Below are positions 1 to 59,314 of a DNA stretch of 64,000 nucleotides, piece after piece; position 1 is the stretch's first letter, and the number at the start of each line of letters is the position of its first letter. The DNA comes from Brevibacillus laterosporus (GTDB lineage Bacteria > Bacillota > Bacilli > Brevibacillales > Brevibacillaceae), in assembly GCA_007833815.1 (NCBI GenBank), contig CP033464.1, positions 3,776,001-3,840,000 on the forward strand, given 5' to 3'. Position numbers and translations under genes: made by a program. The notes below the pieces were generated by a model. It saw only the letters and a program-made list of their open reading frames with translations. It was not told the origin of the DNA and did no database searches.

Positions 1-3000
1 CCTTTTGCACGCAAGGTCTGCGCGAGGCGGTTGGCTTTTTCATCCAATTCGCGATAAGTCAGTTGCTGATCACCGTATACCACAGCGATCTGCTCTGGCA
101 TAGCGCCTGCTTTTTGTTCGAACAGCTTCTGCACAGTGATGTCTTGGGGGATGCTCGTGAATGTGTTGTTAACTCCTGTGAGCAGGTGTTCTTTTTCAGC
201 ATCGGTCATCATGTCAATGTCGATCAGCTTGATATCCGGTTGCGCAATCACTTGATTGAGAATGCACAGATAATGTTGGGTCATCCGCTCTATCGTCTCA
301 TGACGGAACAGTTGGGTCCGGTACTCCCAGTCAAACACAATTTTGCCTTCGCGTTCAGCTGCTACCACGGTCATGTCGAATTTGGCTATATCATGAGTGA
401 ATTCATAGGAGCTCATTGCCAGATTAGCCATCGGGAAGGCGGAAACATCGATATTCTGTACGGAGAACATGACGTCAAAAAGCGGATTGCGGCTAACGTC
501 ACGCTGAACATCCAGCTTTTCGATCAGTGTCTCAAGTGGGTAATCCTGATTTTCGAACGCTTTGAGGCTGTTCGCTTGGACTTCGCTCAGGAATTGGCCG
601 AACGTCGCGTCAGTCACAAGTTGGCTGCGCATCGCAAGCGTGTTGACGAACATCCCCATCACATGTTCTAGTTCAGCCAGTTGGCGTCCGGCAATCGGGG
701 TACCAATGACAATATCATTTTGGTCGCTGTATTTGTGAAGTAGGACATTAAGTGCGGCCAGCAGGGTCATATACAAGGTACTACCCTGTTCGTTGCAGTA
801 AGTCAGCAAACGCTCACTCTGGCTTTCGTTGAGTTCGAATTCGATGCGCGCACCCGCGAACTCTTGAACAGTCGGGCGCGGGAAGTCAGTCGCAAGCTCC
901 AGCACAGGAATGTCACCGCTGAAGGTGTCGAGCCAATATTTCTCCTGCGCCTTTGCTGCACCTCTTTGCATGATCGCTTGTTGCCAGACGGCATAATCTT
1001 TGTATTGAATCGAGAGCGGTGCCAATTCCACGCGGGCGTAGAGTTGAGCCAACTCATGTAGGAAAATGTTCATGGAAACACCGTCAGAGATGATGTGATG
1101 CATGTCGAGTACGAGCAGATGGTCTTGTTCCCCGATTCGGAAAAGTCCGACTCGTGCCAGTGGTGCCTGACTTAAATCAAAAGGTTGAATGAACGTGTCG
1201 ACCTCTTTTTTCAGTAATTCTTCGGTGGCTTCGATATAGGAAAACGGCAATTCGGCTTCCTTATGAATCTGCTGCATCAACTCTTCGTCTACGGTGACAA
1301 AAGAAGTTCGGAGCGATTCATGACGATGGGTCAGTGTGCGGACGGCTTCTTGCAGGCGTTCGACATCAAGTGGTCCGTTGAGCCGCATCATCATCGGCAT
1401 ATTATAGGTTAGTTCCGCGCCGTCGAATTGGACGGTCACATATAGACGTTTCTGTGCTGAGGTCGACGGATAAAAGTCACGAGCTTCTGCTGGAACGAGT
1501 GGCGGTAAGGTACCCTCATCAGCCTCTGTGATGTAAGTCGCCATCTGCTCGACGGTCGGATGGCTGAACACTTCTTTGAGTGGATACTGGATGCCAAAGT
1601 GCTTGTTGATTCGAGAAACCAGCATTGTCGCTTTGAGAGAATGGCCGCCCCGTTCGAAAAAGTTATCGGTGATGCTCACTTGAGTAATACCTAGCACTTC
1701 GGCCCATATTTCTGCCAGTTGTTTCTGTGTTTCGTTCTTAGGTGCCACGTATTCGCTTCCACTGGCGATGGTCTCCGGCATCGGGAGTGATTTGTGGTCA
1801 ACTTTGCCATTGACGGTCAGTGGGAGAGAATCGAGTGCTATATAATAGGAAGGAATCATGTAATCCGGCAGCTCTGCTGACATATGCCCACGCAGTTCGG
1901 TGGTACTCACTTCATCAGCTTGCACGTAGTACGCGCAAAGTGTTGCGTCGTCAGAAATTACCTGCACGGTTATGACCGCTTCATTTATCGCAGGGTGCTT
2001 ACGTAGTTGAGCCTCGATTTCGCCAGGCTCGACACGATGACCGCGTACTTTGATCTGATTATCGACGCGACCGTGGAAAGTCAGGGTTCCTTCTTCCGTC
2101 CAACTGACAAGGTCACCCGTGCGGTACATGCGTTCATCCGGTTCGAACGGGCTCGCTACAAACTTCTCGGCTGTCAGATCAGGACGGTTGTGGTAGCCAC
2201 GAGCAAGACCTACACCACAAACGCACAGTTCGCCAGGTATTCCGACAGGCTGGAGCTGGTCATCAGCGGTCAACACATAGGCACGAGTGTTGGCGATTGG
2301 ACCACCAATGGTAATTGGCTTGTCTATTTGCATGTCGCGGGCAAATGTAGAGACGATCGCGTTCTCTGTTGGGCCGTATTCGTTGATCAACTCAATACGA
2401 GGGTTGAGTGATTGACTCTGACGGATGATGTTCTCTGTCAGTTTGTCGGCACCCAAGCAGATCAAGCGTAACGACTCGGTCTCTTCGGCGGTCATGCCGT
2501 CGATGATCGCTCTGTACATGACGGGCACGGTAATAAAGCTGGTTACGTTCCAGCGCAGGATATGACGCTTGATCGCCGCTGGGTCTTTGGCATCGTCGGG
2601 CGGCAAGATGACCGCTTTGGCTCCGGCGATCAATGGTGAGTATAGGCTAATGACGAACCCGTCGAACGCGAAGGAAAAGAGCTGCAACACACTGTCTTCT
2701 GTACAGAATCCGTACTCGCGGCTACGCCAATAGATTGTATTGACCACATTGCGGTGTTCAATCATAACCCCTTTTGGCTTGCCGGTGGTGCCGGACGTGT
2801 AGATCATATATGCAAGGTCAGATGGGGTATTTACTGACTCAAGCGGACTGTTGTCTGTATCGCAGGCAGTGATATCAATCAGGCCGTAAGATGCCACTTT
2901 TTCCCCAAGGGTAGCGCTAATGATTTCGCGCAGATGCGGTTGGGTCAGAATCAATTGAATATGGCTATCAGTCAGGATATATTCGATGCGCTCTTTTGGA

Positions 3001-4643: not shown

Positions 4644-4703
4644 GTCCGTTACTCCCCATTTTTTCTCCTAGATATGTATGAGTGAAAATAGTAAGGAAGG
4701 GAT

Positions 4704-4743
4704 GTGTGAGCCGTAAGTCCATTCGGATAATAACAGCTCACAC
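4704..4743 (-). other. Intercistronic stem-loop between NRPS genes
   Basis: Perfect 8-bp inverted repeat GTGTGAGC (4704-4711) / GCTCACAC (4736-4743) in the 135-nt gap between two NRPS genes. There is no T-run, so it is not a standard terminator. It could be an mRNA processing or stability element; the role is inference. Confidence 0.45.
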
Positions 4744-4778
4744 TTCCTCTTGTGCCTTGGTGGCGGCACGGCATTAGA

Positions 4779-7700
4779 TTAGAGATTGTTGATAAAGTCT
4801 GCGATGTCGTCCAGCTCTTCGAAGGTCAGATCCTCATCACCTACATCACTTGGGGTGAGATCGGCGCCTTCTTTTTGCAGGCAGTGATTGATAATCGAGC
4901 GTAGATGGTGCATATAACGCTCCACTAGCTTGGTAATTGTGCTGTCTTGGTAGCGCTCTTGGCTATAGAGGATTTGAACGTGCAACTGTCTCTCATTTAC
5001 ACTTCCAATAATATCCAATTCATAACTACGTTTGCTGTTCGGACTGAACAGCGGTCCTTTAGGCATGTCTGATGGCTGGAACAATCCCTCTCCTTTGCTC
5101 TGCTCGAACTGACCGAGGTAGTTGAAACTAATCTCGGGCTGCAGGGTGAGTGCGGAGCCTTCGCGCTGGGCTGAACCTGCGAGATGCTTTAGGATGCCGT
5201 AGCCTATTCCTTTTTGCGGAACGATGCGTAGGGATTCTTTTATCGCCTTGATCTGATAGGAGAGATCATGGTCAGGACGGATAGTCAGATTGACAGGATA
5301 CAAGGAAGTGAACCAACCTACTGTTCGACTGATGTTGATTTCCTTGATGATACCTTCGCGTCCGTGACCTTCGAGATCGACTAGCACGTGGCTTTCCCTT
5401 GTCCACTCGTGAATCGTGCGGGCCAGCGCGGTGAGCAACAGGTCGTTGATCTCGGTATGATAGGCTTGATGAGCATGCTTGAGAAGGTTATCCGTCTCTT
5501 CGCTTGTCAAACTGGCGGCCTGGCTCTGAAGGTTGCGCCAGAAATTGGTTCCATCCGCATGATCTTGTGGCAACGGCTGATTACTGATTGCTTCGAGCTC
5601 TTTCCAATAGTGCCACTCTTTGGCTATCGTTTTGCTGTCGGCATATTCCGTAAGGGCGCGGGCCCAATCCTGATAGGAATGCGTCTTGTCCGGAAGCTGG
5701 ATGTCTTCGCCACGCTGGGCTTGGTGGTAGGCAGTCTGTAAGTCTTCCAGTATAATTCGCCAGGATACGCCGTCTACCACCAAGTGATGGATGGTAAGCA
5801 AAAGGTGGTCGCCCCAAGCAGTCTGGAACAGGATTGCTTTGAACAGGGGACCGTGTGTCAGATCAAGGCTCTGTTGCATACGGGTGGCTTCCGTCTCGAT
5901 TCGTGAGGTCAAAACCGTCGCGTTGTTCACACCACGCAAGTCGATGATGTCAAGGATGAATTCTTTTCCTTCCGCCTCTCCGATGCTACTGTTGGTCTGT
6001 ATGACACGACCGTCTGCTTCCATGTTGTAGACCATCCGCAACGCGTCATGATGTCCCATTAATTCTGTCAGAACGGTGCGAAGAATCTCTGCTTCTAATC
6101 CTGTTTGTGCATGCAACATCACCGATTGATTCCAGTGGTGCTGATTGGTCATCTGTTGAGCGAAGAACCACTGCTGGATCGGTGTCAGTGGAACCTCTCC
6201 CACTACTTCCCCTTGGGTCGCGGTGGTGCTCATCTGTTTGACATAGAGGCTGAGCTCTTCGATGGTCGGATAAAGAAAAATCTGCTTGATATCCGCCTTC
6301 AACTGATGATTGCTCAAGCGGGCCACAATCTGAATCGCGTTAATTGAGTCTCCGCCAAGGTCAAAGAAGTTATCCTGAATACCAATGCGCTCCACGCCCA
6401 GCACATCGGCAAATATTATCGTCAACAGTTCTTGCTTATCGTTAGTTGGAGCCACATACTGTTTGCCGGTCTGAGTCTCGGTATCAGGCAATGGCAAGGC
6501 TTTTCGATCGACTTTGCCATTGGTTGTCAACGGCAGTTTCGGCAACGTGATGTAGAACGTTGGAATCATATAGTCCGGTAGGTGTACGGCAAGGTATTTG
6601 CGCAGTTCACGATAATCGGGTGCGTCTTCGGCGACGATGTAGGCACAGAGGACTTTTTTGGTATCTAACTCCTTTGGCTCGACGATAGCCGTTTGGATTG
6701 CCTCGAAAGCATTGAGCCTGCTTTCGATCTCCCCCAGTTCGATGCGGTAGCCTCGAATTTTGACTTGGTGGTCTCCACGGCCTAGGAATTCAAGATTTCC
6801 GTCTGGAAGCCAACGGGCAATGTCGCCTGTGCAGTACATGCGTTCCCCTTCAGCAAACGGATTGGCCACGAACGCCGCATCAGTCAGGTCAGCCCGATTG
6901 AGATAACCACGTGCCAGACCACCCCCGGAGATACACAACTCACCTGGCACACCGATTGGTTGCAGTTTTCCGTGACGGTTGATCACATGGATACGTACAT
7001 TTTGGGCGGGTTTTCCAATTGGGATATTTGGCAGAGCCTCGGTCACTTCGTAGTATGTTGCCAAAACAGTGTTTTCTGACGGACCATAGTTATTGATGAA
7101 ACGGCAGGATTGCGGAATAAAGCGATTCAGTTTGTCGCCACCTGTGTTCATGATGCGCAAGCTCTGAGTCGGCCATTCCATGAACAACTCGAACATCTGA
7201 GTCGGTAGATAGCTCACCGTAATCTGATGGTGATCATAGTAGTGGTGCAAACGCTCAATATCATAGCGCACCTCATCACTCAACAGATGGAGCGTTGCCC
7301 CTGCAGTCAGGCTAGGGAAAATCTCCCAGATTGTCGCATCGAATCCAAAGCCAGCGTATTTGGTCATACGATCTTGCGGGGTCAATTCGTACTGCTCCTT
7401 GATCCCACAACAGAGATTGATCAGCGAATGGTGTTCGACCATCACCCCTTTTGGCTGCCCCGTAGAGCCGGAGGTAAAGATGACGTATGCCAGATTGGTG
7501 GAAGTAGTGACAGGCTCCAAATTAGTGGTCTCGCCCTGATACAGTGAAGTATCGGAAAGAGCCAAAATTTCCCCGTCAAAAGTCAACGAAAGTAGTGACT
7601 TCGTATGGGTCAACAGCCATTTGCTGTTCGCCTCTTTGACCATATAATTCATGCGCTCAACCGGATAATCTGGAGCAATCGGCAGGAACGCACCGCCGGC

Positions 7701-10700
7701 TTTGAGCACTGCGAGCAGTGCAACGACCATCTCCACGGAGTGGTCTGCGATGATGGCTACGATGCTTTCGGAACCAACGCCTATGGAGCGCAACTTGCGG
7801 GCCAGTTGATTTGCCTTTTCATTGAACTGCTGGTAGGTCAGCTGTTGCCACTCATCCACGAGTGCGATGTGATCAGGTCGTTCGATAGCCTGCTGTTCGA
7901 TTAAGGCATGCACAAGTTGATCAATTGGATAGTCCGCTTGGGTGTCGTTAAAAGTAGTCAGTAATTGCTCGCGCTCCTCTGCCGTTACCATATCGATCTG
8001 AGCAATTGATCGATCCGGATCTAAGACTGCTTCGCTGATGATCTGGGTCAAATGCTCAGCCATGCGCTCGATGGTCTCTCGCTTGTAGAGGGAGGTGCTG
8101 TACTCCCAATCAAACACCAGTTCGCTATCCAACTCTGCAACCTGAACTGTCATGTCAAACTTCGCTACCTTGTACGGATAGGCGTAGTTGCTGACTGTTA
8201 AGCCCGGTAGGTTTTGCTTGGCAAACGCTATATTTTGCACCGCAAATGTCGTGTCAAACAACGGATTGCGGCTAAGGTCTCGACGCAGGTTGAGCTTGTC
8301 TATCAGTTCTTCGAGCGGATAGTCCTGATGCTCATAGGCATTAAGAAGGTTCTCTTTTACCTCGGTCACAAACGCTCGGAAACTCTTGTCAGCAGCTGGC
8401 TTGTTGCGCAGAGCCAAGGTGTTGACGAACATCCCGACCACTGGTTCCAGCTCAGCAAGTAGACGGCCAACGATAGGTGAGCCGACAATAATGTCTTCCT
8501 GATCAGTATATTTGGAAAGCAGCACGTTATACGCCGCGATCAGAGTCATAAACAATGTCACTTGGTTCTGCTCGCAGAAACGGTTAATCACCGCTGTCTG
8601 TTTTTCATCCAAGGTAAAGGTGTATCGGTCCCCCTCAAACTGTTGAACAGAACCGCGGGCATAGTCGGTTGGCATGTCGAGCACTGGTAATTCACCAGCA
8701 AAGGTATGGAGCCAGAACTCTTCCTGACGTGTAGCCTCTTTACCCTGCATCTTGGTCTGTTGCCATGACGCATAGTCTTTGTACTGAATGCGTAGAGCTG
8801 GCAGTTCTTGACCTTGATAGAGTTGGTTAAACTCTTGAACCAAGAGTTTCATGGATACACCGTCGGAGATGATGTGATGCATATCCACGACAAGCACGTA
8901 ACGCGTATCGCTAGCACGGATGATTAGGCCACGCATAAGTGGTGCTTGGCTCAAATCAAATGGCTGGATGAATTGTTCGATGATCTCGTTCAGTTCTGCT
9001 TCGCTCGCCTCTGGTGCTTCAATCACCTCAAATGGTAGTTCTAAATTCTCATGTACCTGTTGCATCAGAGCGCCATCTACCATCGTAAATGAAGTTCGAA
9101 GTGACTCATGACGATCCACCAAGCTTCTCCAGACCGAGCAGGTACGCTGTGTGTCGAGAGATCCCTCAATGGAGAGCATCAACGGCATGTTGTAGCTGGT
9201 CCCCGCCCCTTCGAACTGTTGGATGACGTAAAGACGTTTTTGTGCGGATGTAGTAACATAATTTTCTTTATGGTCAACTGATTCGATTGCGACATATTCG
9301 CGTGTGGTAGCATTGCGGATATAATCAGCCATTTGACGGATCGTTGGATATTGAAACACCGCTTTGAGTGGGAAATGAATTTCTAGCTGCATAGCGATGC
9401 GTGATGCGAGCATGGTCGCTTTAATTGAATGACCGCCGATACTGAAAAAGTTGTCTTCCACTCCAACTCTCGCCTGCCCCAGAACTTCTCCCCACATCTC
9501 GGCAAGCGTGGACTCCAACTCATCTGATGGTGCGACATATTCGGTGCTACGGTGAAATTGTTCATCAATCTCAGGCAGTTGGTTGCGATCCACCTTGCCG
9601 TTTGGCGTGAGTGGCAGTTTTTCCATCTCAACAAAGTAGCTTGGAGTCATGTAGTCCGGCAGGTTTTGACCAAGTGACTGACGCAGTTCCTCTGGCTTCA
9701 CCCCGTTAGCTACGTAATATGCGACGAGGTAGACAAGCCCGTGGGAGTCTTGGCGATCGATCACGATGGCGTCTTGCACCTTTGGATGTTGCAACAAAAC
9801 ATGAGTAACCTCGCCTGGCTCAATACGGTAGCCACGGATTTTGACCAGATGGTCGAGACGAGAGACGTATTCCAAGTTACCGTCCGAAAGCCACTTGACC
9901 ACGTCACCAGTACGGTAGATACGCTCGCCTGATCGATACGGATGCGGAATGAATTTTTCTTCAGTCAGTTCGTCGCGGTCTAAATAACCGCGTACTAAGC
10001 CACCGCCCCCGATGCACAACTCACCTGGAACACCGATTGGCTGAAGGTTTTGATTTCGGTCAAGTACGAATAGTTGGGTCTGACTCACTGGTTTGCCGAT
10101 AGGCACTGTGTGTGCGTCAGCTGATAGCTGCCCGACCGAATAGTACGTGGAATAGACCGTGTTTTCCGATGGACCGTAGAGATGAATGAGTCGGTTGGGT
10201 CCGAGATATTGTATCGCTCTGCGGACGTGGTGAACCGAGACTTTTTCCCCACCGAACAAAATCTTGTGCAGCGGAGCTATACAGCGCAAGTCCGCATCCA
10301 CCACCGCATTGAACAGGGCTGTTGTCATCAGTGTCATGGTGACGCCATTCTCAGTGATGACCCGAGCCAGTTGGGTGACGTCCAGCATCTCTTCGCGCTT
10401 GATCAGCACCAGCCGAGCACCATTGAGCAATGCACCATAGACGTCGAAGATGGAGCCGTCAAAAATATAGTTGGACAGCTGCAAAATCCGGTCTTGCTCG
10501 CGGATGTTGACATAGTTGGGATTGACCACAGTCCTTAACACATTGGCATGAGTGGTCAGATTGCCTTTTGGCTTCCCTGTTGAGCCGGAAGTGTATTGGA
10601 TGAACGCGAGACTTGGCCCGTTGGCCTGCTGCGGCAGATTGCTTGCATCCCCTTGGTAGAGCGCGTTGTCATCAAGTGGAATGGCTTCGACCAGCCATGG

Positions 10701-12434: not shown

Positions 12435-12450
12435 TTGTTACTACCTCTCC

Positions 12451-20100: not shown

Positions 20101-20166
20101 TCTTGTACATACACCCCGCATTCCAATAATTAATGTGATTTTCCATTGGTAGAAAAAGTGTCCCCC

Positions 20167-20206
20167 GCGCACACGTCAGAAGCCAACAAGGCCTACCCGT
20201 GTGCGC
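20167..20206 (-). other. Intercistronic stem-loop between NRPS genes
   Basis: Perfect 9-bp inverted repeat GCGCACACG (20167-20175) / CGTGTGCGC (20198-20206), GC-rich, in the 148-nt gap between the first and second NRPS genes. No T-run follows on either strand. It may be a processing or stability hairpin within the long transcript; the role is inference. Confidence 0.5.
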
Positions 20207-20248
20207 CGGAGTGACGTGACCGGTTTTCGGGGATGACAGATTACTTCA

Positions 20249-23200
20249 TCAGTTAAAAAGATCCAACGCCGCTTCCAAGTCATCAAAGCTCAAGCCGCTT
20301 GAGGTAAAGTCACTAGGGGTTAACTCATTGGTTTGCTGGCTTACACAGTGTTGGATACAGCGCAGCAGGTTCTCTTTAAAACGGGCCAACAGTTTGGTAA
20401 TGGTTTCTGTCTGATGAATCTGGGTGTTATACAGGACGGACAGCTTCAACCTGCCGTCTGTTACCATGCCAAGGAAGTCGAGCATATAGGTTCGTTCGGC
20501 GCTTGGGCTGAACATCTCACCGACTGGTTTGTCAGATGCTTGGAACAACCCGACTCGCTGGCTGTTGTCAAACTGACCGAGATAGTTAAAGCTGACTTCG
20601 GCCTGTGTGTCGGTGAGCGTTGTCTCGGTGAGGTATTTGAGAATGCTATAACCAACACCTTTGTTGGGAACTTGGCGAAGCGATTCTTTCATCTGTTTAA
20701 TCTGCTGTCCAAGGTCTCGCGGTGCATTCATCTTCAGCACCACAGGATAGATCGAAGTGAACCAACCAACTGTTCGTGTCACGTTGATGTCTTTTATTAT
20801 GTCTTCGCGGCCATGTCCTTCTAGATCGACACGGATTTGTGTCTGTCCGCTCCATTCACTGAGTGTCAAGCCGAGCGCAGTGAGCAGGATTTCGTTAATC
20901 TCGTTGTTATAGGCGTGATGTGCGTGTTTAAGCAAATCTTCCGTTTCCTTTTCGCTCAGACAGACCGTTTCTTCGGCAGTTTCAGCCCAGCGGTTGCATG
21001 GCGATGTTGCATCTTTTGGCAATGGTTCGGTTGCGGTCTGTACCACGGTTTGCCAGTAGCTCGCTTCTTTCTGTGCCATACGGCTGTTGGCATATGTGGT
21101 GAGCGCCTCTGCCCAGTTTTGGTAAGAGTGCGTCTTTTCAGCAAAATGGATCATCTGATCGCATACTGCCTGCTCGTACCCGATCGCTAAGTCTTCAAGT
21201 AGGATGCGCCAGGAGACACCATCTACCACTAAGTGATGAATCGCCAGCAAGAGATGGTCACCTTCCGCCGTATGGAACAGGCCGGTATGGACGAGTGGCC
21301 CATGGGTCAGGTCAAGACTCTGCTGGATGCGGGTAGCCTCGGTACGGATGGCTGTGTCAAGCTCGTTCCCAACGGTCAGATTGCCAAGGTCAATTACCTC
21401 AAAGTCAAACAAATGACTCTCTTCCCCACGGTTCACTTGCTTGATGTGATGCTGAGACAACACGTAGGACATGCGCAAGGCATCATGATGTAACACCAGT
21501 TGGCGCAAGACGCGATAAAGGGCTTCTTCGTCAAACCCTTCACGACGGTAGACCATCATCGATTGGTTCCAATGGTGAGAGTCAGCGAAATCTTGGGCGA
21601 AGAACCAGCGTTGGATCGGTGTCAACTCAACCTCACCTGTGATCATGTCCTGATCTGCTTTGGCCTCCAGCGGTTTGACGTAGAGGCTGAGTTCCTCGAT
21701 GGTCGGATTCATGAAGATATCTTTGATCTCCACTTTCAGTTGATGCTTGTTCAACTGGGCAATCACTTGTATGGCCTTGATCGAGTCGCCTCCCAGATCA
21801 TAGAAGTTGTTGCGGATACCGATCCGTTCTGCTCCGAGCACTTCTTGCCAGATCGTGGCGAGAATAGCATCTGTCTCGCTTTGTGGTGCCACGTAGGAGA
21901 TAGCGGCTTCTGCGGATTTGTCCACAGATGGCAATGCTTTGCGGTCTACCTTGCCGTTGGCGGTAAGCGGCAGTTGCTCTACCTCAATGAAATAGGATGG
22001 CACCATGTAATCCGGGAGTGTTTGACCAAGCCACTTGCGCAGATCATTGGTAGATACCACTGAACTAGCGGTATAGTACGCCGCCAGCATTTTGCTGTTG
22101 CTGTCTTGCTGTGCAACGACGACGACCTCTTTGACAGATGGATGCTGCAAGAGCGTTGTTTCAATCTCGCCTAGTTCAATACGGTGGCCGCGGATTTTGA
22201 CTTGGGCATCGATGCGATCCAAATATTCGAGATTACCGTCTGGAAGCCAGCGCACCAAGTCACCTGTACGGTACATGCGCTCACCAATAGCAAACGGGTT
22301 GTCGACGAACTTTTCAGCGGTCATCTCCTGCTTATTCCAATAGCCGCGTGCCAAGTTAGTGCCTGTGACACACAATTCGCCCAACACGCCGATTGGCTGA
22401 AGCTGATTGTGGGAGTTAAGCACATATGCCTTGACGTTGTGGATCGGCTTGCCGATAGGGATGTTCTTGTCCGCCTCTGTGATGAAGCAATTGGTGGCAA
22501 CGACCGTGTTTTCAGTCGGACCGTAGTTGTTGACCAGCTGATAGTTTTGCGGCGTATACGTTCTAAGCTTATCCCCGCCTGTCATCAGGTAACGAAGCGA
22601 ACGGTTACCAAGACTCATGAAGGTCTCACACAGTTGGGTTGGCAAAAAGCTGACCGTGATACGGTGCTGTTCGTAGTACTCATTAAGTTTGTGGATATCG
22701 TAACGAAGATCATCCCCCATAACATGGATGGTCGCACCACTAATTAGGTACGGGAAGATCTCCCAAACCGAGGCGTCGAAGCCAAATCCGGCGTATTTAG
22801 TCGCAGCATCTTCGGATGTGATGCCATACTCGCTCTGATGCCAGAAGCAGAGATTGACGAGCGAACGATGCTCGATCATGACCCCTTTTGGCTTCCCGGT
22901 TGAACCCGACGTGTAGATGATGTACGCCAAGTTGGCAGGCTGCGCTACCTCTGGAAGGTTGGACGCGTCGCCCTGATAGGAGGTCGAGTCGGCGATCAGA
23001 ATGACCTCCCCTGCGTAAGCGTTGATCTCCACGGCTTGACTAGTGTGAATGAGTAACAGCTTCGCTTGGCTGTCTTCGAGCATGTATTGGATACGGTCGG
23101 CAGGATACTCCGGGTCGATCGGCACGAATGCAGCCCCAGCTTTGAGGATGGCTAGTAAACCGATGAACATCTCTAGAGAGCGGTCTGCCATGATGGCGAC

Positions 23201-26200
23201 AATCTGCTCAGGCCCCGTTCCTTTTTCGCGCAGGCGACGTGCAAGTTGATTGGCCTTATCGTTGAGTTGCTGATAGGTCAGTGCCTCTGAGCAACATACA
23301 ACAGCGGTCTGATCAGGTGTTACCAGCGCTTGTTTTTCGATCAAAGTATGGATCGTCTGCTCAACCAGGTAATCGCGTTCGGTATGGTTGAAATCAATCA
23401 AGAGTTGAGCTTTTTCCGCTTCTGTCACCAGCTCGATGGCGACAATGGAGAGTTGTGGCTGTTCCATGACTTGCTCCAACAGGTGGATCAAGTGCTTGGA
23501 CATCCGCTCAACCGTCTCGCGGGCAAACAGCTTAGTGCTGTATTCCCACTCAAAGCGGAGTTGCCCGTCTTTTTCCACACACAATAGCGTCAGGTCGAAC
23601 TTGGAGATCGGGTATTGATAATCATACGAGCTGACTTGGACATCTTGCATCACGTTGTAGTCGATATCTACGTTTTGCAGGGTAAACATCGTGTCAAACA
23701 ACGGATTGCGGCTCAAGTCGCGGCGCAGACCCAGTTTTTCGATCAGTTCTTCCAGCGGGTAATCTTGGTGTTCGTGGGCTTGAAGCACATGTTCTTTCAC
23801 TTCTGCGACGAATTGACTGAATGATTTATTGGCCTGCGGATAGTTGCGCAACGCCAACGTGTTGACGAACATACCCATCATCTGCTCCAAATCGGCATGC
23901 GGGCGACCTGCAATCGGTGATCCTACGATAATATCTTCCTGACTCGTCCATTTCGCCAAAAAGACATTGTACGCAGCAAGCAACAGCATATAGAGCGTAG
24001 TATCTTGACTTGTGGCAAAAGATTTGAGTCTCGTGGTCCAGTCTTTGCTCTGATCGATCCAGATGCGGTCTCCCTCGAAACTTTGGGCAGATGGACGCTG
24101 GTAATCAGTCGGCAGTTCTAGCACTGGCAGTTCTTTAGCAAAAATGTCAAGCCAATATGCCTCATGTTGACGATTCTCTTCACTGCCAAGGCGGGATTGC
24201 TTCCAGACGGCAAAGTCTTTGTATTGAATGCGAAGTGGCGGTAGGTCCGTGCCTTGGTAGTACACGCCAAGGTCGCGCATGAATACATTCAGCGACACTC
24301 CGTCTGCAGCAATGTGGTGCATATCTACCACGAGGATAGCGTGCGCCGGAGCCAGTTCAATCAGAGTGGCTCTCAGTTGTGGAGCTACACGTAAGTCAAA
24401 CGGGCGGATCGCATCGGTAATCAAGTCGTGTATCAGTGTCACCGCATCAGCATCCGACTGAACTTCGGGAGCCTGTACGATCTCCACAGGTACATCAGCG
24501 TTCTCATGAATCCGTTGTACGAGCACTCCCTCCACCATCTCATAGCTGGTGCGGAGCGTGTCATGACGAAGGACGACAGCTTGAAGAGCTTGTCGCAGGC
24601 GGTCTTTGTCCAAGTCGCCGCGAAGTTCAGCAATGATTGGCATGTTATACCCTGTATTAACACCATCAAACTGGCTGATGACGTAGAGACGTTTTTGTGC
24701 GGATGTGACAGGATAGTGCGTCATAGTTGCCGCGGGTTCGATAGACGTATAGGAACGGACAACGGCTTGCTCGATATAGGTTGCCATCTGCTGAATCGTC
24801 GGTTTGAGGAACACTTCTTTGAGCGGGAACTCGATACCAAAATGCTTGTGAATCCGCGATACCAGCATCGTCGCTTTAAGCGAGTGACCACCGATTTTGA
24901 AGAAGTTGCCGGTCGCACTCACATTCTCCACTCCCAAAACTTCCGCCCATATCCCAGCCAGTGTAGCCTCCGTCTCATTGCCCGGAGCCACGTACTCTTC
25001 CATCATCACAGTCGCTTCAGGAATCGGCAGAGCGAGGCGGTCGATCTTGCCATTGTGATTGAGTGGCAACTCGTTTAGTGGCATCAGGTAAGATGGAATC
25101 ATGTAGTCAGGCAGAGATTCGGCCAGATAGCTGTGGACAGCTTCCGGTGTCAAGACTTCCTCTGTCACATAGTACCCACACAGGCTGGGATTAGAACCAC
25201 TCTGATACATCATGACAAACGCTTTGCTAATCATTGGGTGGTTCAACAATTGAACTTCGATCTCTCCTGGCTCAATTCGATAACCCCTAATTTTTACTTG
25301 ATGGTCGATGCGACCCAAGTATTCGATCGTGCCGTCCGGCAACCAGCGAGCTATATCGCCTGTACGATACATAATTTCACTCGGAGCAAACGGATTTGGC
25401 ACAAATTTTTCGGCGGTCAAATCATCGCGGTTCAGGTAGCCTAGTCCGACTGTGTCACCAGAGACACAGAGTTCACCCGGTACACCAACAGGCTGGAGCT
25501 GCATCTGTTCACTTACAATGAAAATTCGCGTATTGGCTAGCGGTCGTCCAATCGGTGGAATCCCCATGATTGGCTCTTTAGCCTTCATCGTTAAGCTGGT
25601 GATTACATGCGTCTCTGACGGTCCATAATGGTTGTGCAACTGAATGTCATGCTGATGCAGATACGTAATGAACGATTCCGGCAGGATCAGCTGCTCCCCT
25701 GCTGTGACCAAATGTTTGAGTGATTTCGGTAATTTTTCCACGTAGAACGGTTCATTGATGATGAACTTCAACAGTGAGGTCGGCAGGAACGCCGTCTCCA
25801 AACCCCGTTCTTCGATAAATGCCAGGAGCTTAAGGATATCGCGCTTGTCATCATTGCCGATGATGTGAAGCTCCCCACCCGCCAACAGCGTGGAGAAAAT
25901 CTCCTGATAGCACACGTCAAAACTGATTGTGGTAAACTGCAACACACGTCTGAAATCAAGTGTGGTCTGGTTATATTCAAAGTGAACAATATTGGATAAA
26001 TTGCGGTGTGCAAGCATGATCCCCTTCGGACGACCTGTTGTACCAGACGTGTAGATTGCATACAACAAATCGGATGAAATGTTGATACAATCCAGATTAT
26101 CGGTGGCGTTTTGCTGATACGCTGTGTCATCCAGCTTGATCACGTCACCGCTGAACATCAGACCCGTTTCATCACGATCGGTTAGTAATAGGGTACTGCC

Positions 26201-29200
26201 GCTGTTTTCCAGCATGTAGCTGACCCGCTCTGTCGGCAGTACCGGATCAATCGGCAGGAACGCCCCACCCGCTTTGAGAATGGCGAGCAATCCGGTCAGC
26301 ATCCCTATCGAACGATCTGCCATAAGACCTACGACCTGATTTGTTTTGACCCCTTTGGTTCTCAAGTGGAGGGCCAGTTGGTTGGCTCGTGTATTGAGTT
26401 CACCATAGGTGATCTTCTGGATCCCGTCCTGTTCGACAGCAGCCACAGCATCTGGAGTACGGGCTACCTGTTGTTCAAACTGTTGGTGCAACGTCATGTC
26501 TCGTGGGTAATCCATCTCGGTTTGATTAAACGCCGCGAGCAGATGTATGTCCGCGTCAGAGAGGAACGTCACGTGAGACAGTGGTTGAGCCACATCTTCA
26601 CTCACTGCCGTAAGAAGCCGTTCGAAGTGTGACAGCATCCGCTCCATCGTATCATCGCGGTACAGTTCAGTATCGTACTCCAGCATAACCTGTAAGTCTT
26701 CCCCCGCTTCAAAAACTTGGACAGTAACATCAAACTTAGAGGTTTCGCTGTTCTCGATATGCATCGTCATCGTAGCATCTGCCAGGTCAATCGGGCGCAT
26801 CTTGGCGTTCTGCACGATGAACAACACTTGTGAAAGGGGGTGAAGATGCGGTCTACGCTCAAGATCAAGCTCGTCTACTACCATCTCAAAAGGCACGTCT
26901 TGATTGTCGAACGCTTCAAGCGCAGTTACTTTCACTTTTTGCAACAAATCAGCAAAACTTTCCGTCATATCTATATCCACACGCATCGCCAACGTATTGA
27001 CGAAAAAGCCAATCAAACGTTCGATCTCTACCTGGTTACGGTTGGCGGTAACGGATGAGACAATTACATCGCGCTGACCAGAGTAGCGGGACAACAGCGC
27101 TAAGAAAGAGGATAGCAAGATCATGTACAAGGTTGCACCCTCTTGCTGGCTCAACTGCTCCAGTTTTTCCCGCAGATGTGAGCTGAATCTACGTTCAATG
27201 GACTTGCCCACTCGGCTTGGATTAACTGGACGCGGATAATCGGTCGGCAACTCCAATTCAGTCGCATCTTCAAGCTTGGTTTTCCAATAGCTCAGCTGAC
27301 GGACGATCAGTTCATCTGAGAGCAGGTCTTGCTGCCAGAGTGTATAGTCCGCATACTGAATCGGCGATTCCGGCAATTCTACGGTCTTCCCGTCTCTAAG
27401 CTGGTCATACGCATCGGCTAATTCTTCAATGAATACCCCGACAGACCAACCGTCAGAGACGATATGATGAATCGAGACCACCATGACATGTTCATCATCG
27501 GCAGCACGGATCAACACAGCGCGTATGAGTGGATCCTTTTCTAAGTTAAATGGTGTGATCGCTTCTTGACGAATCTGAGCTTGTACCGCATGTCCACGCT
27601 CACCGGAAGGCAGATGTGTCACATCCACCAACGGTACTTCGATCACCAGTTCCGAAGCAATGATCTGTACCGCCTCATCCCCCTGCAGGGCAAATCGGGT
27701 ACGCAGTGTTTCATGTCGGTCCACAATCAACTGCACCGCCTGCGAAAGCAGATGAACTTGGACGTTCTCTCCTTTCAGATGGAGGCTGACCGTGTTGTTG
27801 TAGTACGGGCTCTCTGGGTTCAATTGGTACAGGTACCATTGACGCTTTTGTGCGCTGGACATAGGTAGGGTGTCGCCGTACACCGCTTTGTTGATCTTAT
27901 GCTGATCACCTGTGTTACGTTGACCCGCACCCATTTTCTGTTCGATCTCTTGGGCCAGTCCCTCAATCGTTGGACTGACAAACAATGCTTTCAGCGGAAT
28001 ATCCACTTGGCAAATCTCTCGGACCTGTGACAGCAGTTGTGTCGCTTTAATTGATTGTCCACCTAGAGCGAAAAAGTTATCACGTACCCCAAAATCATCT
28101 GTTCCAAGTAAACTTGACCAGATACTAAACAGGGCATTTTCTAATGGAGACCTCGGTTTGATGCGTTCGATGCCTCCTGCTTTTTTCTCCAATGCCATGA
28201 GCATCTCTTCGCAATCGGTTGCCCCCGCCTCGGTGTACATCCATTCATCGATTTCATGCAACACCACTTGAATCGGCTCACCAGGCTTTGCCGCCAGAAG
28301 CACTTGCTCTGTCTTTTCTCTCAACGATTGGTACGACAGCTCCATCGTTTGATCCAGTTGAAAAAAGAGATGCAGCATTTGTATTCTCTCAGGTTCGATT
28401 GCCAGGAACTTAGACATGTCCGGTTTGGTTGCATCAATCCCTACATAGAGCAAAGATTCATTCGACATCATCCCAATCAGCCAAGAATAGAGACCTTTTA
28501 CAGAGCGGATCGCTTGGTGACCACGGCTTTGCAGGATATCCTTCATCACCAACAGGTCGCGCCCCATCCCGATGTCATCCCACAAGCTCCATGCGAAGCA
28601 ATAGGTTCTCACTTCACCACTCGCCTGCATGTACTGGCTAAAGCTCTCCACGAACTGATTCGCCGCCGCATACGCACCCGCCATATAACCAGATGACAGT
28701 GTGGTGGTTGAGGATGAAGTGACATACATACTGGTAGGTCGCTTTTTCAAAAGCTGATAAAGGGCAAACGTACCGTACACCTTGGCTTCGAACATTTCAT
28801 CTAACGTCGCCTTGGTTTCATCCTTGAGCAGTGTCTCACGGTACACACCGGCAAGATGAATCACTCCGTTCAGAGTCTGACCAAAACGCCCCTCCCACTC
28901 AGCTGTGACAGCTTCGAGTTGCACCGGATCAGCGATATTACATGTGGTATAGTGAACTTCTCCACCGTTTTGTGCCCATGCTTCAAGCTCCTTAAGCCAT
29001 TTGATTTTCTTACTCGTACCTGTTGATTCGTCAGAACAGCTCCCTTCTGAACTAGCCGGAAGCGGTGTTCGGCCAACAAGAAGCACTTTTGCCTGATAGT
29101 GACGCAACAGATGCTCGACAAAAAGCTTCGCCACCCCGCCAAGACCACCAGTGATCAGGTAAAAACCACTTTGTGTCAACGGACTCTCTGTCAGCGCGGT

Positions 29201-31951
29201 GTTTTCCAATTCCACACGGGTCATGCGTGGTATATAACGTTTTCCTCCACGGTAAGCAACGATTGCTGTTTTGGTATGATTCGTCACACCTTCCAAAAGT
29301 GCCAATTGTGCAGCGGTTACCAGTCGGTTTAGTTCTTGTTTGATGAATGCACCGTATATTTCTTGAGCGTCATCAGTCAGGTCGATATGGAGAAACGCCG
29401 TCTCAGGGAACTCATGCGGTAACGTTTTGAAAAAGCCGATCAACGGAGAATTCGCATAGGAAACCATCTCTGCTTTGTTCGTCTGGTAGAGGTTTTGCGT
29501 GACCAGAGTAAACGTTGATGGTTGCAAATTGCGATCGGCCATGACTTTTGCTAGATAGACCGTCGCGTAGTTGTCCTCTTGCACCGCTTTCAGTTCGTCT
29601 ATGGTCTGCGGTTGATCACGGGTGACATTACCACTCATCCCTTGCAAAAAGAACACATGTGAGATCTCAATCTGCTCTTTTTCAAGCTCACCGAATAATT
29701 TATTCAAATCATTTAGATTATTGAAATTTACGACATATTGAAAGCTCCCTATTTTGGAGAACTCTTTTCCGTTTGTAACGATGATAGATTCTCCTTCACC
29801 CATTTCCCCTAAGACCAATCCGTTCACCGCTTCGAACGAATTAATCATGAGTAGCCGATTGCCGGAAATTACCACTCTCTCGCCTTTTGTCATCTCCTCA
29901 CACGAAACATCATCCACCGGACATTCTATCCATATTGGTTTGTAAAACCAGCTTGGAAGCGTGTTGTCGTTTTCCAGTTTCAGATCGATTTTCTTGAGGA
30001 TCTCGTCGAACTCTCCGTTAGCCAGACGTTTGGAAAGATCAGGACGCTGGATTTTGCCAGAGTTCGTTTTAGGAAATTCTCCCTGCGTGATTGGAACGAT
30101 CAACGCCGGATTCAGGCCCATCTTGACATTGAGATGACGGCGAATCTCTTTGATCACGCCCAAGCAGGATTCGAGATCAGGTTCAACCGGAACAAAGAAA
30201 ATCGCCAGTTCGTCGCTACCACTAGACATCTTGGGAATTGTAATAGCGGCAGAAAACGTGACCTTGACGCCTTTTACCTCTTCCACGAACGACTCTATTT
30301 CGTAGTTGTGAATATTATTTCCGTTGATGATGATCACGTCTTTTTCACGACCAGTGATCGTCAGTCTGCCTTGATGCAGGAAACCGAGATCACCCGTAAT
30401 GAACCATCCGTCGCCGCCGAATACTTCTGCGTTCGCTTCCGGGTTATCGTAATAGCCCACCATGATGTTGTTACCTTTAACCTGCAAGCGACCAATCTGG
30501 TTTTCGCGGATCACGTTGTTGTTGGAATCGACGATACGAACGGATACACCGGGGATCGGCCCCCCTACTTCGGTAAACATCACATGATTCGGATGCCCCA
30601 CGGAAACGCTGCGAATCGTTCCACCGAGCGACGCTTTATCCAGAATCTGATAACCGCTCGTCGGGGTCAGACGATTGAGCAGCTTGTTGAAAACGATTCC
30701 GGAAGAAGTCTCTGACATACCAAAGGATGGAGCCATCGCGTCATCTGGTAATCCGTGCGGTTGAAGCAACGTAAGGAACTGCTGAACAACCTTAGAGACG
30801 ACCGGCTCGCCCCCGTTGAGGATATGGCGCATACTGGAGAGATCCCAATTGCTTTGTTTGATTTTTTCTACTTGATCATTAACCAGCGCAAACGCGAAAT
30901 TAGGTGCCCAGGTCATCGTTGCCCGATATTGGTCAATCCAGTTGAACCAATTGAGTGGATTTGCGATAAAGCTGTCGATCTTAGGCAAAATCTGTTCGCT
31001 TGCCAGATAAACGCCAAGCACGTGAAACATCACGATCCCACCCACGTGGTCCAATGGCATCCAGTTCAGAATGATTTCATCCGATGTAAAGTTATGGCAA
31101 GCGACTGTACCACGCGCACGAGCAAGGATGCTTTCGTTGCAGTGCTGAACGCACTTCGGAATTCCTGTACTGCCTGATGTCAAAAGATGGAGTACGAGTG
31201 AATCTGGTGTAGCCTCGTAATACTGCTGATCTGGTTCATTGTATGTCAACGGCTCCAGTGCCACATAACGTAACTCGTCGGTCTCCAAGAGGGTTTGTAG
31301 TTGTTCAATCGACCCAATCAACGCTTCATCCACCAGCATCAATGGTTTCTGTAAAAGTTTCCAAGCGTTATGTATACGGCTAACCCCAGAATTCCAGTCT
31401 GTATAAGTCGGTGCAATCGCGATCGGTGTCGGCAAAAATCCGCCGAGTACACAAGCCCAGAACGCAGTGACAAAATTCTTGTTGTGATCCAACTGGAATA
31501 TTACTGGATCGCCTGGTTGAAGCCCTTGCTGGCGCAAACCACGCAGGACCGACTCCGCCTCTCGCAATAGCTTCGCATAAGTCATGGTGACTTCGCTGCC
31601 ATCGAGTTGGACAAAGATCAATCGTTTGTCGTGAGCGACACGGGCCGCCCGCAAGAGAACCTCGATTAACGTACCTGGTTCATCTACCGCCAGTTGTAGC
31701 TCTCCCCCGAAACTGAGCGCAAGCGGCAAAGCCTCATCCCGTTCATCGTGTTGCGTTGTGGCTGTGGAAGTCTGGCTCCCGTTCATCAATTGTTCCGATT
31801 TCCAGTCCGAGAAAAAGTGACTGAGATGAATGGCAGGAATGGTAACAAGGCCCTCTTTTGCCAAAGAGGCTATTTGTCCAACACCTTCCAGCGTTTTCAA
31901 CTCTTTTACCAAGTCGATTGGAATCGTTCGAGAATCAACAGGTTGTGACAT
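20249..31951 (-). CDS. Initiating NRPS: acyl-AMP ligase-KR-T-C-A-T-C-A-T-E
   Basis: 3900 residues; ATG at 31949-31951 with AAGGGAGT upstream; first gene of the NRPS operon. Domains: acyl/aryl-AMP ligase of the fatty-acyl-AMP/CoA-ligase-like type (about 50-610; LTSGSTG near 257; PLDHVGG motif), a PKS-type ketoreductase including its structural half (about 665-1130; TGGLGG near 934; Ser in TSSSTTT and Tyr/Asn in AYAAAN near 1095 intact), a carrier domain (GGQS near 1299), C (HHIVSDG near 1499), A (1805-2300), T (GGHS near 2357), C (HHIAADG near 2545), A (2855-3340), T (GGDS near 3387), E (HHLVVDGVSW near 3579) and an acidic donor docking tail. First A pocket D-V-Q-F-V-A-H-V-I reads as Pro; second D-A-W-F-M-G-N-V-V as Leu, epimerised to D. 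The loading part should activate a carboxylic acid and reduce a keto group on it. A KR at this place has precedent in PksJ of bacillaene, where it reduces an alpha-keto starter. Which acid is loaded cannot be read from sequence. Confidence 0.97.
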   Translation of the reverse strand: MSQPVDSRTIPIDLVKELKTLEGVGQIASLAKEGLVTIPAIHLSHFFSDWKSEQLMNGSQTSTATTQHDERDEALPLALSFGGELQLAVDEPGTLIEVLLRAARVAHDKRLIFVQLDGSEVTMTYAKLLREAESVLRGLRQQGLQPGDPVIFQLDHNKNFVTAFWACVLGGFLPTPIAIAPTYTDWNSGVSRIHNAWKLLQKPLMLVDEALIGSIEQLQTLLETDELRYVALEPLTYNEPDQQYYEATPDSLVLHLLTSGSTGIPKCVQHCNESILARARGTVACHNFTSDEIILNWMPLDHVGGIVMFHVLGVYLASEQILPKIDSFIANPLNWFNWIDQYRATMTWAPNFAFALVNDQVEKIKQSNWDLSSMRHILNGGEPVVSKVVQQFLTLLQPHGLPDDAMAPSFGMSETSSGIVFNKLLNRLTPTSGYQILDKASLGGTIRSVSVGHPNHVMFTEVGGPIPGVSVRIVDSNNNVIRENQIGRLQVKGNNIMVGYYDNPEANAEVFGGDGWFITGDLGFLHQGRLTITGREKDVIIINGNNIHNYEIESFVEEVKGVKVTFSAAITIPKMSSGSDELAIFFVPVEPDLESCLGVIKEIRRHLNVKMGLNPALIVPITQGEFPKTNSGKIQRPDLSKRLANGEFDEILKKIDLKLENDNTLPSWFYKPIWIECPVDDVSCEEMTKGERVVISGNRLLMINSFEAVNGLVLGEMGEGESIIVTNGKEFSKIGSFQYVVNFNNLNDLNKLFGELEKEQIEISHVFFLQGMSGNVTRDQPQTIDELKAVQEDNYATVYLAKVMADRNLQPSTFTLVTQNLYQTNKAEMVSYANSPLIGFFKTLPHEFPETAFLHIDLTDDAQEIYGAFIKQELNRLVTAAQLALLEGVTNHTKTAIVAYRGGKRYIPRMTRVELENTALTESPLTQSGFYLITGGLGGVAKLFVEHLLRHYQAKVLLVGRTPLPASSEGSCSDESTGTSKKIKWLKELEAWAQNGGEVHYTTCNIADPVQLEAVTAEWEGRFGQTLNGVIHLAGVYRETLLKDETKATLDEMFEAKVYGTFALYQLLKKRPTSMYVTSSSTTTLSSGYMAGAYAAANQFVESFSQYMQASGEVRTYCFAWSLWDDIGMGRDLLVMKDILQSRGHQAIRSVKGLYSWLIGMMSNESLLYVGIDATKPDMSKFLAIEPERIQMLHLFFQLDQTMELSYQSLREKTEQVLLAAKPGEPIQVVLHEIDEWMYTEAGATDCEEMLMALEKKAGGIERIKPRSPLENALFSIWSSLLGTDDFGVRDNFFALGGQSIKATQLLSQVREICQVDIPLKALFVSPTIEGLAQEIEQKMGAGQRNTGDQHKINKAVYGDTLPMSSAQKRQWYLYQLNPESPYYNNTVSLHLKGENVQVHLLSQAVQLIVDRHETLRTRFALQGDEAVQIIASELVIEVPLVDVTHLPSGERGHAVQAQIRQEAITPFNLEKDPLIRAVLIRAADDEHVMVVSIHHIVSDGWSVGVFIEELADAYDQLRDGKTVELPESPIQYADYTLWQQDLLSDELIVRQLSYWKTKLEDATELELPTDYPRPVNPSRVGKSIERRFSSHLREKLEQLSQQEGATLYMILLSSFLALLSRYSGQRDVIVSSVTANRNQVEIERLIGFFVNTLAMRVDIDMTESFADLLQKVKVTALEAFDNQDVPFEMVVDELDLERRPHLHPLSQVLFIVQNAKMRPIDLADATMTMHIENSETSKFDVTVQVFEAGEDLQVMLEYDTELYRDDTMERMLSHFERLLTAVSEDVAQPLSHVTFLSDADIHLLAAFNQTEMDYPRDMTLHQQFEQQVARTPDAVAAVEQDGIQKITYGELNTRANQLALHLRTKGVKTNQVVGLMADRSIGMLTGLLAILKAGGAFLPIDPVLPTERVSYMLENSGSTLLLTDRDETGLMFSGDVIKLDDTAYQQNATDNLDCINISSDLLYAIYTSGTTGRPKGIMLAHRNLSNIVHFEYNQTTLDFRRVLQFTTISFDVCYQEIFSTLLAGGELHIIGNDDKRDILKLLAFIEERGLETAFLPTSLLKFIINEPFYVEKLPKSLKHLVTAGEQLILPESFITYLHQHDIQLHNHYGPSETHVITSLTMKAKEPIMGIPPIGRPLANTRIFIVSEQMQLQPVGVPGELCVSGDTVGLGYLNRDDLTAEKFVPNPFAPSEIMYRTGDIARWLPDGTIEYLGRIDHQVKIRGYRIEPGEIEVQLLNHPMISKAFVMMYQSGSNPSLCGYYVTEEVLTPEAVHSYLAESLPDYMIPSYLMPLNELPLNHNGKIDRLALPIPEATVMMEEYVAPGNETEATLAGIWAEVLGVENVSATGNFFKIGGHSLKATMLVSRIHKHFGIEFPLKEVFLKPTIQQMATYIEQAVVRSYTSIEPAATMTHYPVTSAQKRLYVISQFDGVNTGYNMPIIAELRGDLDKDRLRQALQAVVLRHDTLRTSYEMVEGVLVQRIHENADVPVEIVQAPEVQSDADAVTLIHDLITDAIRPFDLRVAPQLRATLIELAPAHAILVVDMHHIAADGVSLNVFMRDLGVYYQGTDLPPLRIQYKDFAVWKQSRLGSEENRQHEAYWLDIFAKELPVLELPTDYQRPSAQSFEGDRIWIDQSKDWTTRLKSFATSQDTTLYMLLLAAYNVFLAKWTSQEDIIVGSPIAGRPHADLEQMMGMFVNTLALRNYPQANKSFSQFVAEVKEHVLQAHEHQDYPLEELIEKLGLRRDLSRNPLFDTMFTLQNVDIDYNVMQDVQVSSYDYQYPISKFDLTLLCVEKDGQLRFEWEYSTKLFARETVERMSKHLIHLLEQVMEQPQLSIVAIELVTEAEKAQLLIDFNHTERDYLVEQTIHTLIEKQALVTPDQTAVVCCSEALTYQQLNDKANQLARRLREKGTGPEQIVAIMADRSLEMFIGLLAILKAGAAFVPIDPEYPADRIQYMLEDSQAKLLLIHTSQAVEINAYAGEVILIADSTSYQGDASNLPEVAQPANLAYIIYTSGSTGKPKGVMIEHRSLVNLCFWHQSEYGITSEDAATKYAGFGFDASVWEIFPYLISGATIHVMGDDLRYDIHKLNEYYEQHRITVSFLPTQLCETFMSLGNRSLRYLMTGGDKLRTYTPQNYQLVNNYGPTENTVVATNCFITEADKNIPIGKPIHNVKAYVLNSHNQLQPIGVLGELCVTGTNLARGYWNKQEMTAEKFVDNPFAIGERMYRTGDLVRWLPDGNLEYLDRIDAQVKIRGHRIELGEIETTLLQHPSVKEVVVVAQQDSNSKMLAAYYTASSVVSTNDLRKWLGQTLPDYMVPSYFIEVEQLPLTANGKVDRKALPSVDKSAEAAISYVAPQSETDAILATIWQEVLGAERIGIRNNFYDLGGDSIKAIQVIAQLNKHQLKVEIKDIFMNPTIEELSLYVKPLEAKADQDMITGEVELTPIQRWFFAQDFADSHHWNQSMMVYRREGFDEEALYRVLRQLVLHHDALRMSYVLSQHHIKQVNRGEESHLFDFEVIDLGNLTVGNELDTAIRTEATRIQQSLDLTHGPLVHTGLFHTAEGDHLLLAIHHLVVDGVSWRILLEDLAIGYEQAVCDQMIHFAEKTHSYQNWAEALTTYANSRMAQKEASYWQTVVQTATEPLPKDATSPCNRWAETAEETVCLSEKETEDLLKHAHHAYNNEINEILLTALGLTLSEWSGQTQIRVDLEGHGREDIIKDINVTRTVGWFTSIYPVVLKMNAPRDLGQQIKQMKESLRQVPNKGVGYSILKYLTETTLTDTQAEVSFNYLGQFDNSQRVGLFQASDKPVGEMFSPSAERTYMLDFLGMVTDGRLKLSVLYNTQIHQTETITKLLARFKENLLRCIQHCVSQQTNELTPSDFTSSGLSFDDLEAALDLFN

Positions 31952-44894: not shown

Positions 44895-44963
44895 AAGATA
44901 TACCCATGTATGAGGACAAAGTGATTTTATAACGATGAAACAACGGATAAGGTGGTCTTTCTC

Positions 44964-58733: not shown

Positions 58734-58992
58734 TTCTACCACTCCTTAGGTATACTGTTCTCTAAATTGTGTAAGAGTAAGGGGCACTGTCCCATACCAT
58801 CGCTCGAATCAAATAATGGAATCAAGTTTATCATAGTACAATACTTGAAAATCTCAAAACTTTAATCACCATATTTTTCCGCTATTCTGCCCGTTAGTTC
58901 AATAACTTGCGGTCAGTCTAAATACATTATTTTCAATAGACAATTGGTATTTTTTAACTGGTCCTGATGACAGAAAGCCATCGACTATTTGC

Positions 58993-59277: not shown

Positions 59278-59314
59278 TGTATAATAAAAGTATCAATTTA
59301 TGTGGGTGGGTACG

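Follow-up and report, generated by a model that had tools for sequence, protein, structure and literature searches.

A ten-residue NRPS line of the auriporcine type in Brevibacillus laterosporus with a predicted sulfonium-amine release

The NRPS line of this Brevibacillus laterosporus is a linear line for ten amino acids of the auriporcine type. It is predicted to start with a 2-hydroxyacyl unit and to release the chain with a sulfonium amine as a peptide amide, a reading given a probability of about 60%. The backbone and the cluster order are already in print. The unusual part is the far end, a SET domain and an AdoMet decarboxylase (AdoMetDC)-like gene. Both lie left of the window, which is the whole analysed stretch of 64,000 nucleotides (CP033464.1, positions 3,776,001 to 3,840,000). 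A broader proposal has slightly better than even odds: SET methyltransferase and an AdoMetDC-derived pyruvoyl enzyme may form a two-gene route to 3-(dimethylsulfonio)propylamine in several phyla, and one Brevibacillus-type lineage may have welded the SET domain to an NRPS C domain, releasing a permanently charged peptide.

Positions 1-31951 carry, on the minus strand, three NRPS genes in full and a portion of a fourth; the genome (G000) has 111 condensation-domain matches. N1 (20249..31951; 3900 amino acids) comprises an A-KR-T loading module, C-A(Pro)-T and C-A(Leu)-T-E. N2 (12451..20172; 2573 amino acids) encodes C-A(Pro)-T and C-A(Leu)-T-E, and N3 (4779..12434; 2551 amino acids) C-A(Ile)-T and C-A(X, DAWYNGNVL)-T-E. 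The first third of N4 (1547 of 4765 residues) is at 1..4643 on the same strand. The whole gene is at G000:C4:3766346-3780643 (= L002:1846-16143), and with its remainder the line extends 9.7 kb beyond the left window edge. N4 encodes C-A(DGIICGEIV, Tyr/Phe-like)-T, C-A(Leu)-T, C-A(Ile/Val)-T, C-A(Thr)-T, a terminal C domain and a SET domain. The full order is keto-acid-type A-KR-T, Pro, D-Leu, Pro, D-Leu, Ile, D-X, Tyr-like, Leu, Ile/Val, Thr, terminal C, SET. The line contains no thioesterase. N1-N4 have no reductase domain, and all 11 PF07993 matches of the genome fall outside the cluster. The next gene after N4 is the AdoMetDC-like gene (G000:C4:3765898-3766272, outside the window). It is followed by a gene for a 354-residue protein (L001:12724-13788) that had no Pfam or NCBIfam match, is also present in the sister genome G003 and could be a cluster member. 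G003 has kept all four NRPS genes, ten modules and tail, at 84-85% identity. Nine of the ten pocket codes are identical and the tenth differs at one position. The conservation of the same four genes in the sister genome argues that the line is not a chance assembly. Elsewhere in the window are a tyrosine recombinase (44952-46085, PF00589) with housekeeping-like neighbours as judged by eye, a glycosyltransferase (57531-58742) with matches to UDPGT and EryCIII-like models, and a transposase-like ORF of 488 amino acids (59300-60766), named by eye only. Glycosyltransferases of the UDPGT/EryCIII-like type can act on natural products.

The pockets of the ten amino-acid A domains were read from an alignment in which the GrsA positions were located by motif. 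We infer the substrates from these codes by the meanings that such codes commonly have. The codes are DVQFVAHVI (Pro) and DAWFMGNVV (Leu) in N1, DVQFVAHVV (Pro) and DAWFLGNVV (Leu) in N2, DGFLLGLVY (Ile) and DAWYNGNVL (X) in N3, and DGIICGEIV (Tyr/Phe-like), DAWFLGNVV (Leu), DGFFFGIVF (Ile/Val-like) and DFWNIGMVH (Thr) in N4. An earlier note on this DNA had listed seven codes. The first six were recovered identically by the separate alignment; the seventh is DGIICGEIV and not DGITILEIV. Its Pro-D-Leu-Pro-D-Leu-Ile-D-X backbone is supported by the codes and, for the D-centres, by the E domains after Leu-2, Leu-4 and X-6. Module order and E domains are read directly from the genes. The E domains close N1, N2 and N3. 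The one after Leu-2 (residues 3431-3898 of N1; 20258..21661, minus strand) has chain matches to gramicidin S synthase 1 and tyrocidine synthases 1 and 2 and contains the motif HHLVVDGVSWR. In a quick tree of 28 rows, the three E domains form one clade and the C domains following them another; the terminal C domain is placed on a long branch among the other elongation C domains.

The line does not begin with a plain fatty acyl start. Residues 78-1126 of N1 (28574..31720, minus strand) are a keto-acid-type loading A domain with a KR (PF08659), matching 6ulw with 977.6 bits and 6ulx with 625.5 bits. The alignment with 6ulw, which we take to be the keto-acid A-KR enzyme StsA, spans query residues 24-1336. 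A 2-hydroxyacyl starter is therefore predicted. The A-KR-T loading module is alike in StsA and, presumably, in the lines with bogorol-type 2-hydroxyacyl starters, and the rest of the line differs in both.

Auriporcine was isolated from B. laterosporus PE36 and consists of a C6 hydroxyacyl unit, L-Pro, D-Leu, L-Pro, D-Leu, L-Leu and L-phenylalaninol, based on a crystal structure, Marfey analysis and the MSn ions 422 and 535 (PMC3940840). Cluster 23 of this strain was predicted to encode a PKS-like initiation module followed by Pro-Leu-Pro-Leu-Ile-Leu-Tyr-Leu-Ile-Thr (PMC3940840). On comparison of predicted module orders, the KR-containing initiation module and the ten residues found here have the same order; leucine for X and tyrosine at position 7 are taken in this match from the antiSMASH labels quoted in that paper. 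With the auriporcine start and the cluster 23 order published, the view that no known Brevibacillus peptide starts this way was wrong. The b-ion series acyl-Pro-Leu-Pro-Leu that had been suggested as a check is represented by the reported auriporcine ions 422 and 535 (calculated 422.265 and 535.349), and the reported [M+H]+ of 799.5330 agrees with the calculated 799.533 (PMC3940840). Auriporcine and cluster 23 thus share with the line the initiation module, the module order, the E domains and the product start hydroxyacyl-Pro-D-Leu-Pro-D-Leu. Auriporcine itself is a six-residue phenylalaninol, in contrast to the ten-residue line, and has L-Leu and L-Phe-ol where modules 5-6 code for Ile and a D-residue.

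The C-terminus of N4 is a SET domain that is closest to BurB, far closer than to lysine methyltransferases, and that has the BurB-type SET fold. BurB is the methionine S-methyltransferase of a sulfonium route to DMSP and contacts methionine via main chains (PMC7496086; PMC12542666 for the contacts). Of twelve BurB pocket residues named in PMC12542666, four are kept in the N4 tail (Thr73, His93, Tyr124, Arg133) and eight differ (Arg42, Ala44, Arg70, His72, Ser88, Val130, Met132, His138). With these differences, the SET domain may act instead on 3-methylthiopropylamine, formed by prior methionine decarboxylation, or on something else. The Ser88 position is Met in 16/16 aligned rows of the N4-tail clade, and the methyl acceptor may therefore differ from that of BurB. 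The SET domain probably produces S-methylmethionine from methionine.

SET tail and terminal C domain were detected in the same two of 40 genomes of the family, the C domain with an E value no higher than 1e-150 among up to 41 candidates scored per genome. A draw of 399 Bacilli genomes had the SET tail in four (G000, G003, G400 and, weakly, G106). The G106 protein was left out; it is a weak match with 27% identity at a locus without an AdoMetDC-like ORF. Of the 398 genomes in a phylum draw, only two passed E 1e-20: G000 and G724, the latter with a stand-alone SET protein at a 3.3 kb locus that has neither type of decarboxylase. The AdoMetDC-like profile matched three of the 399 Bacilli genomes (G000, G003, G400). 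As thresholds differed and G000 and G003 are sister genomes, the co-occurrence with SET in Bacilli counts as few independent events.

The AdoMetDC-like protein is a divergent homologue. With 39.5 bits it fails the cut-off of 75.65 of the AdoMetDC model TIGR03330, and it keeps the AdoMetDC fold, the pyruvoyl-forming Ser and the catalytic His and Cys. The motif HTND is present in 15/15 rows of its alignment; the canonical AdoMetDC copy of the genome has HTYPE. The replaced Trp and Glu of AdoMetDC presumably bind the adenosyl part of the substrate. A search for a Thermotoga AdoMetDC ligand paper in the open-licence literature found none of use. The proline missing after His-Thr-Trp/Tyr is likely the diagnostic proline of Fig. 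8 in PMC10407285, where the roles of Ser63, His68 and Cys83 in AdoMetDC are described. The ornithine decarboxylase SpeDC has the four diagnostic residues Gln, Thr, Phe and Tyr (PMC10407285). SpeDA and SpeDC are similar to the present protein in the AdoMetDC fold, the retained pyruvoyl Ser/His/Cys and the lost AdoMetDC signature. They produce agmatine or putrescine, (PMC10407285), whereas the clade described here is linked to a SET gene of the BurB type.

A scan of genome contigs with the single N4 tail sequence found no relative. Scanning with four aligned SET rows, a procedure in which one of two short motifs has to match exactly, yielded 75 loci, and the counts describe that sample only. None of the record titles names Streptomyces, though S. 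mobaraensis is known to have a BurB homologue. With a profile iterated on its own matches, an AdoMetDC-like gene was found directly upstream of the SET gene at 14 loci, from seven Spirochaetes MAGs, four Paenibacillus, one Alicyclobacillus, one alphaproteobacterial MAG and one unclassified MAG. The pairing is thus observed in other phyla. No C domain was found at these 14 loci, which suggests a use of the pair without an NRPS. On visual inspection of a naive gene list, their neighbours vary between phyla. In the alphaproteobacterial MAG, closely spaced genes on one strand (L022:5606-10435) encode an AMP-ligase, a GNAT acetyltransferase, an amidase, the AdoMetDC-like protein and SET, an arrangement that would suit the acylation of a sulfonium amine there as well.

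A PLP decarboxylase is present instead at 19/75 loci, counted with a profile built from five of them (L025, L026, L027, L037, L045). It is located within 0.2 kb of the SET gene at 16 loci and about 4 kb away in L050. In L025:8331-10007 and L027:4308-6002, a PLP decarboxylase of the ornithine/DAP type and a BurB-type SET domain form one protein, which might make the sulfonium amine on its own. Pfam checks on five of the 19 gave the Orn/DAP/Arg type. L045 has, one after another, a PLP decarboxylase, SET, a class-III aminotransferase and an aldehyde dehydrogenase, which are the types of enzyme described for DMSP. Both decarboxylases together were found at none of the 75 loci. Neither was found in the fetched flanks of 42 loci: 35 from Pseudomonas and three from Pandoraea with BurB-type SET genes (L028 and L066 among the two genera), L021, and the megasynthase-linked, bur-like L047, L054 and L074. 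Proximity is therefore not a general rule. In a SET tree, one side of a 100/100 branch comprises the rows with an AdoMetDC-like partner, both rows fused to an NRPS, and L021; PLP-partnered and partnerless rows are on the other. The tree has 74 rows and only 137 columns, with many forks unresolved; L012, a near-copy of L011, and the fragments L060 and L085 were dropped before. L021 belongs to the AdoMetDC-partnered clade, and its contig of 3.1 kb lacks the decarboxylase.

BurI and SMMDC are similar to diaminopimelate decarboxylase, and the plant enzyme is similar to an ornithine decarboxylase (PMC11464771). Because the PLP class known for S-methylmethionine decarboxylation replaces the AdoMetDC-like gene beside the same methyltransferase, the AdoMetDC-like enzyme probably does the same job. 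An AdoMetDC ancestor is plausible, since S-methylmethionine is AdoMet with a methyl group replacing the adenosyl group. The putative pyruvoyl S-methylmethionine decarboxylase may descend from an AdoMet decarboxylase that gave up the adenosyl portion of its substrate. A SET methyltransferase of BurB fold coupled to a decarboxylase is shared with the BurB/BurI system (PMC7496086, PMC12542666). The decarboxylase of that system resembles diaminopimelate decarboxylase and the one here AdoMetDC. The amine is oxidised there to DMSP, which starts a chain; here the amine would end the chain.

In the proposed pathway, a keto acid would prime the line and the loading KR would reduce it to the 2-hydroxyacyl unit. 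The SET domain would methylate methionine with AdoMet, and the AdoMetDC-like pyruvoyl enzyme would decarboxylate S-methylmethionine to 3-(dimethylsulfonio)propylamine. The reverse order, methionine decarboxylation before S-methylation, would yield the same amine. The terminal C domain is situated after the last T domain, with no TE or R domain downstream. Its motif is HHIISDG in G000 and NHIISDG in G003 (C1, L005), where the first His of HHxxxDG is replaced by Asn. In both genomes the SET domain is physically joined to this C domain and the decarboxylase gene follows. With SET fused to a C domain that lacks a downstream carrier, the simplest role of this C domain would be the transfer of peptidyl-Thr onto the amine. 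We infer from this arrangement that the free amine could cleave peptidyl-Thr from the last carrier to form an amide. The predicted product is 2-hydroxyacyl-Pro-D-Leu-Pro-D-Leu-Ile-D-X-Tyr-Leu-Ile/Val-Thr-NH-(CH2)3-S+(CH3)2, with m/z of about 1370.87 if the hydroxy acid is C6, X is Leu, position 9 is Ile and position 7 is Tyr. Bleomycin A2 is a peptide with a 3-(dimethylsulfonio)propyl amide end. The likeness to the proposed terminal amide concerns the product structure alone, and the backbone is unrelated. For the genes of the bleomycin A2 amine, no useful paper was found in the open-licence literature.

The product isolated from PE36, the six-residue phenylalaninol auriporcine (PMC3940840), speaks against the sulfonium reading. 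The line may act as published: the chain would be released prematurely, either after Tyr/Phe, one module being skipped, or through later proteolysis, and would be reduced to phenylalaninol. The final modules would then have no part in it, nor would the terminal C domain, SET and the decarboxylase. The matching start and cluster 23 order agree with this, and no second Pro-Leu-Pro-Leu line was found in G000, where three Pro-like A stretches reach E<=1e-35, two in the line and the third distant. The third (G000:C4:3684465-3684869, 50% identity) belongs to another large NRPS and has similar counterparts in G003, G004 and G005. An early exit is nevertheless quite unlikely. The means of making phenylalaninol, a reductase, is absent from N1-N4, and the cited passages on the published cluster 23 name none; Ile and a D-residue are coded where auriporcine has L-Leu and L-Phe-ol; and the sister genome has kept all modules and the tail. 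The link to cluster 23 was a tentative assignment in 2014 that invoked module skipping, early termination and reduction, and its authors want further experiments (PMC3940840). The main text of that paper has no mention of a decarboxylase or a thioesterase, and 'set' appears three times as an ordinary word; Figure 5A may draw more.

The far end itself can be read in other ways. The neighbour could be an ornithine, arginine or AdoMet decarboxylase, with putrescine, agmatine or spermidine attached by the terminal C domain and the free amine, similar to the side chain of lysine, N-methylated by SET. AdoMetDC homologues with ODC or ADC activity exist (PMC10407285), and N-methylation of lysine is the best-known activity of SET domains. 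Release by spermidine or putrescine with a lysine-like SET was the first idea. It was displaced by the BurB-like tail and the exchange of the partner for a PLP decarboxylase, which in the other SET clade is the partner where one is present and once lies in a DMSP-type operon; it stays as an unlikely alternative. Terminal C domains can also cyclise or hydrolyse a chain, like the fungal CT (PMC11546977), and the pair could provide a free sulfonium amine for another use, as the 14 loci without a nearby C domain would allow. The fusion would then be incidental, which is highly improbable in view of SET joined to the terminal C domain in two genomes with the decarboxylase gene following. The release as a sulfonium amide is preferred, against which also stand the retention of only four of the twelve BurB pocket residues, the Asn in the G003 terminal C motif, the 42 SET loci with neither decarboxylase, and L021, which has none despite its clade.

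Among the matches listed in the open-licence literature, titles and abstract starts indicated no SET domain on an NRPS, no pyruvoyl S-methylmethionine decarboxylase and no sulfonium amide from Brevibacillus. The passages of the papers cited here contain no report of a sulfonium peptide. If the proposal is true, the likely full product of the kind of line tentatively tied to auriporcine since 2014 would be a different, cationic sulfonium peptide with a searchable mass. The decarboxylase would represent a new class acting on S-methylmethionine, and DMSP-type sulfonium routes would extend to bacteria in which an AdoMetDC-like gene replaces the PLP enzyme. The pair of SET and decarboxylase genes would be a genome-mining handle for sulfonium-capped natural products.
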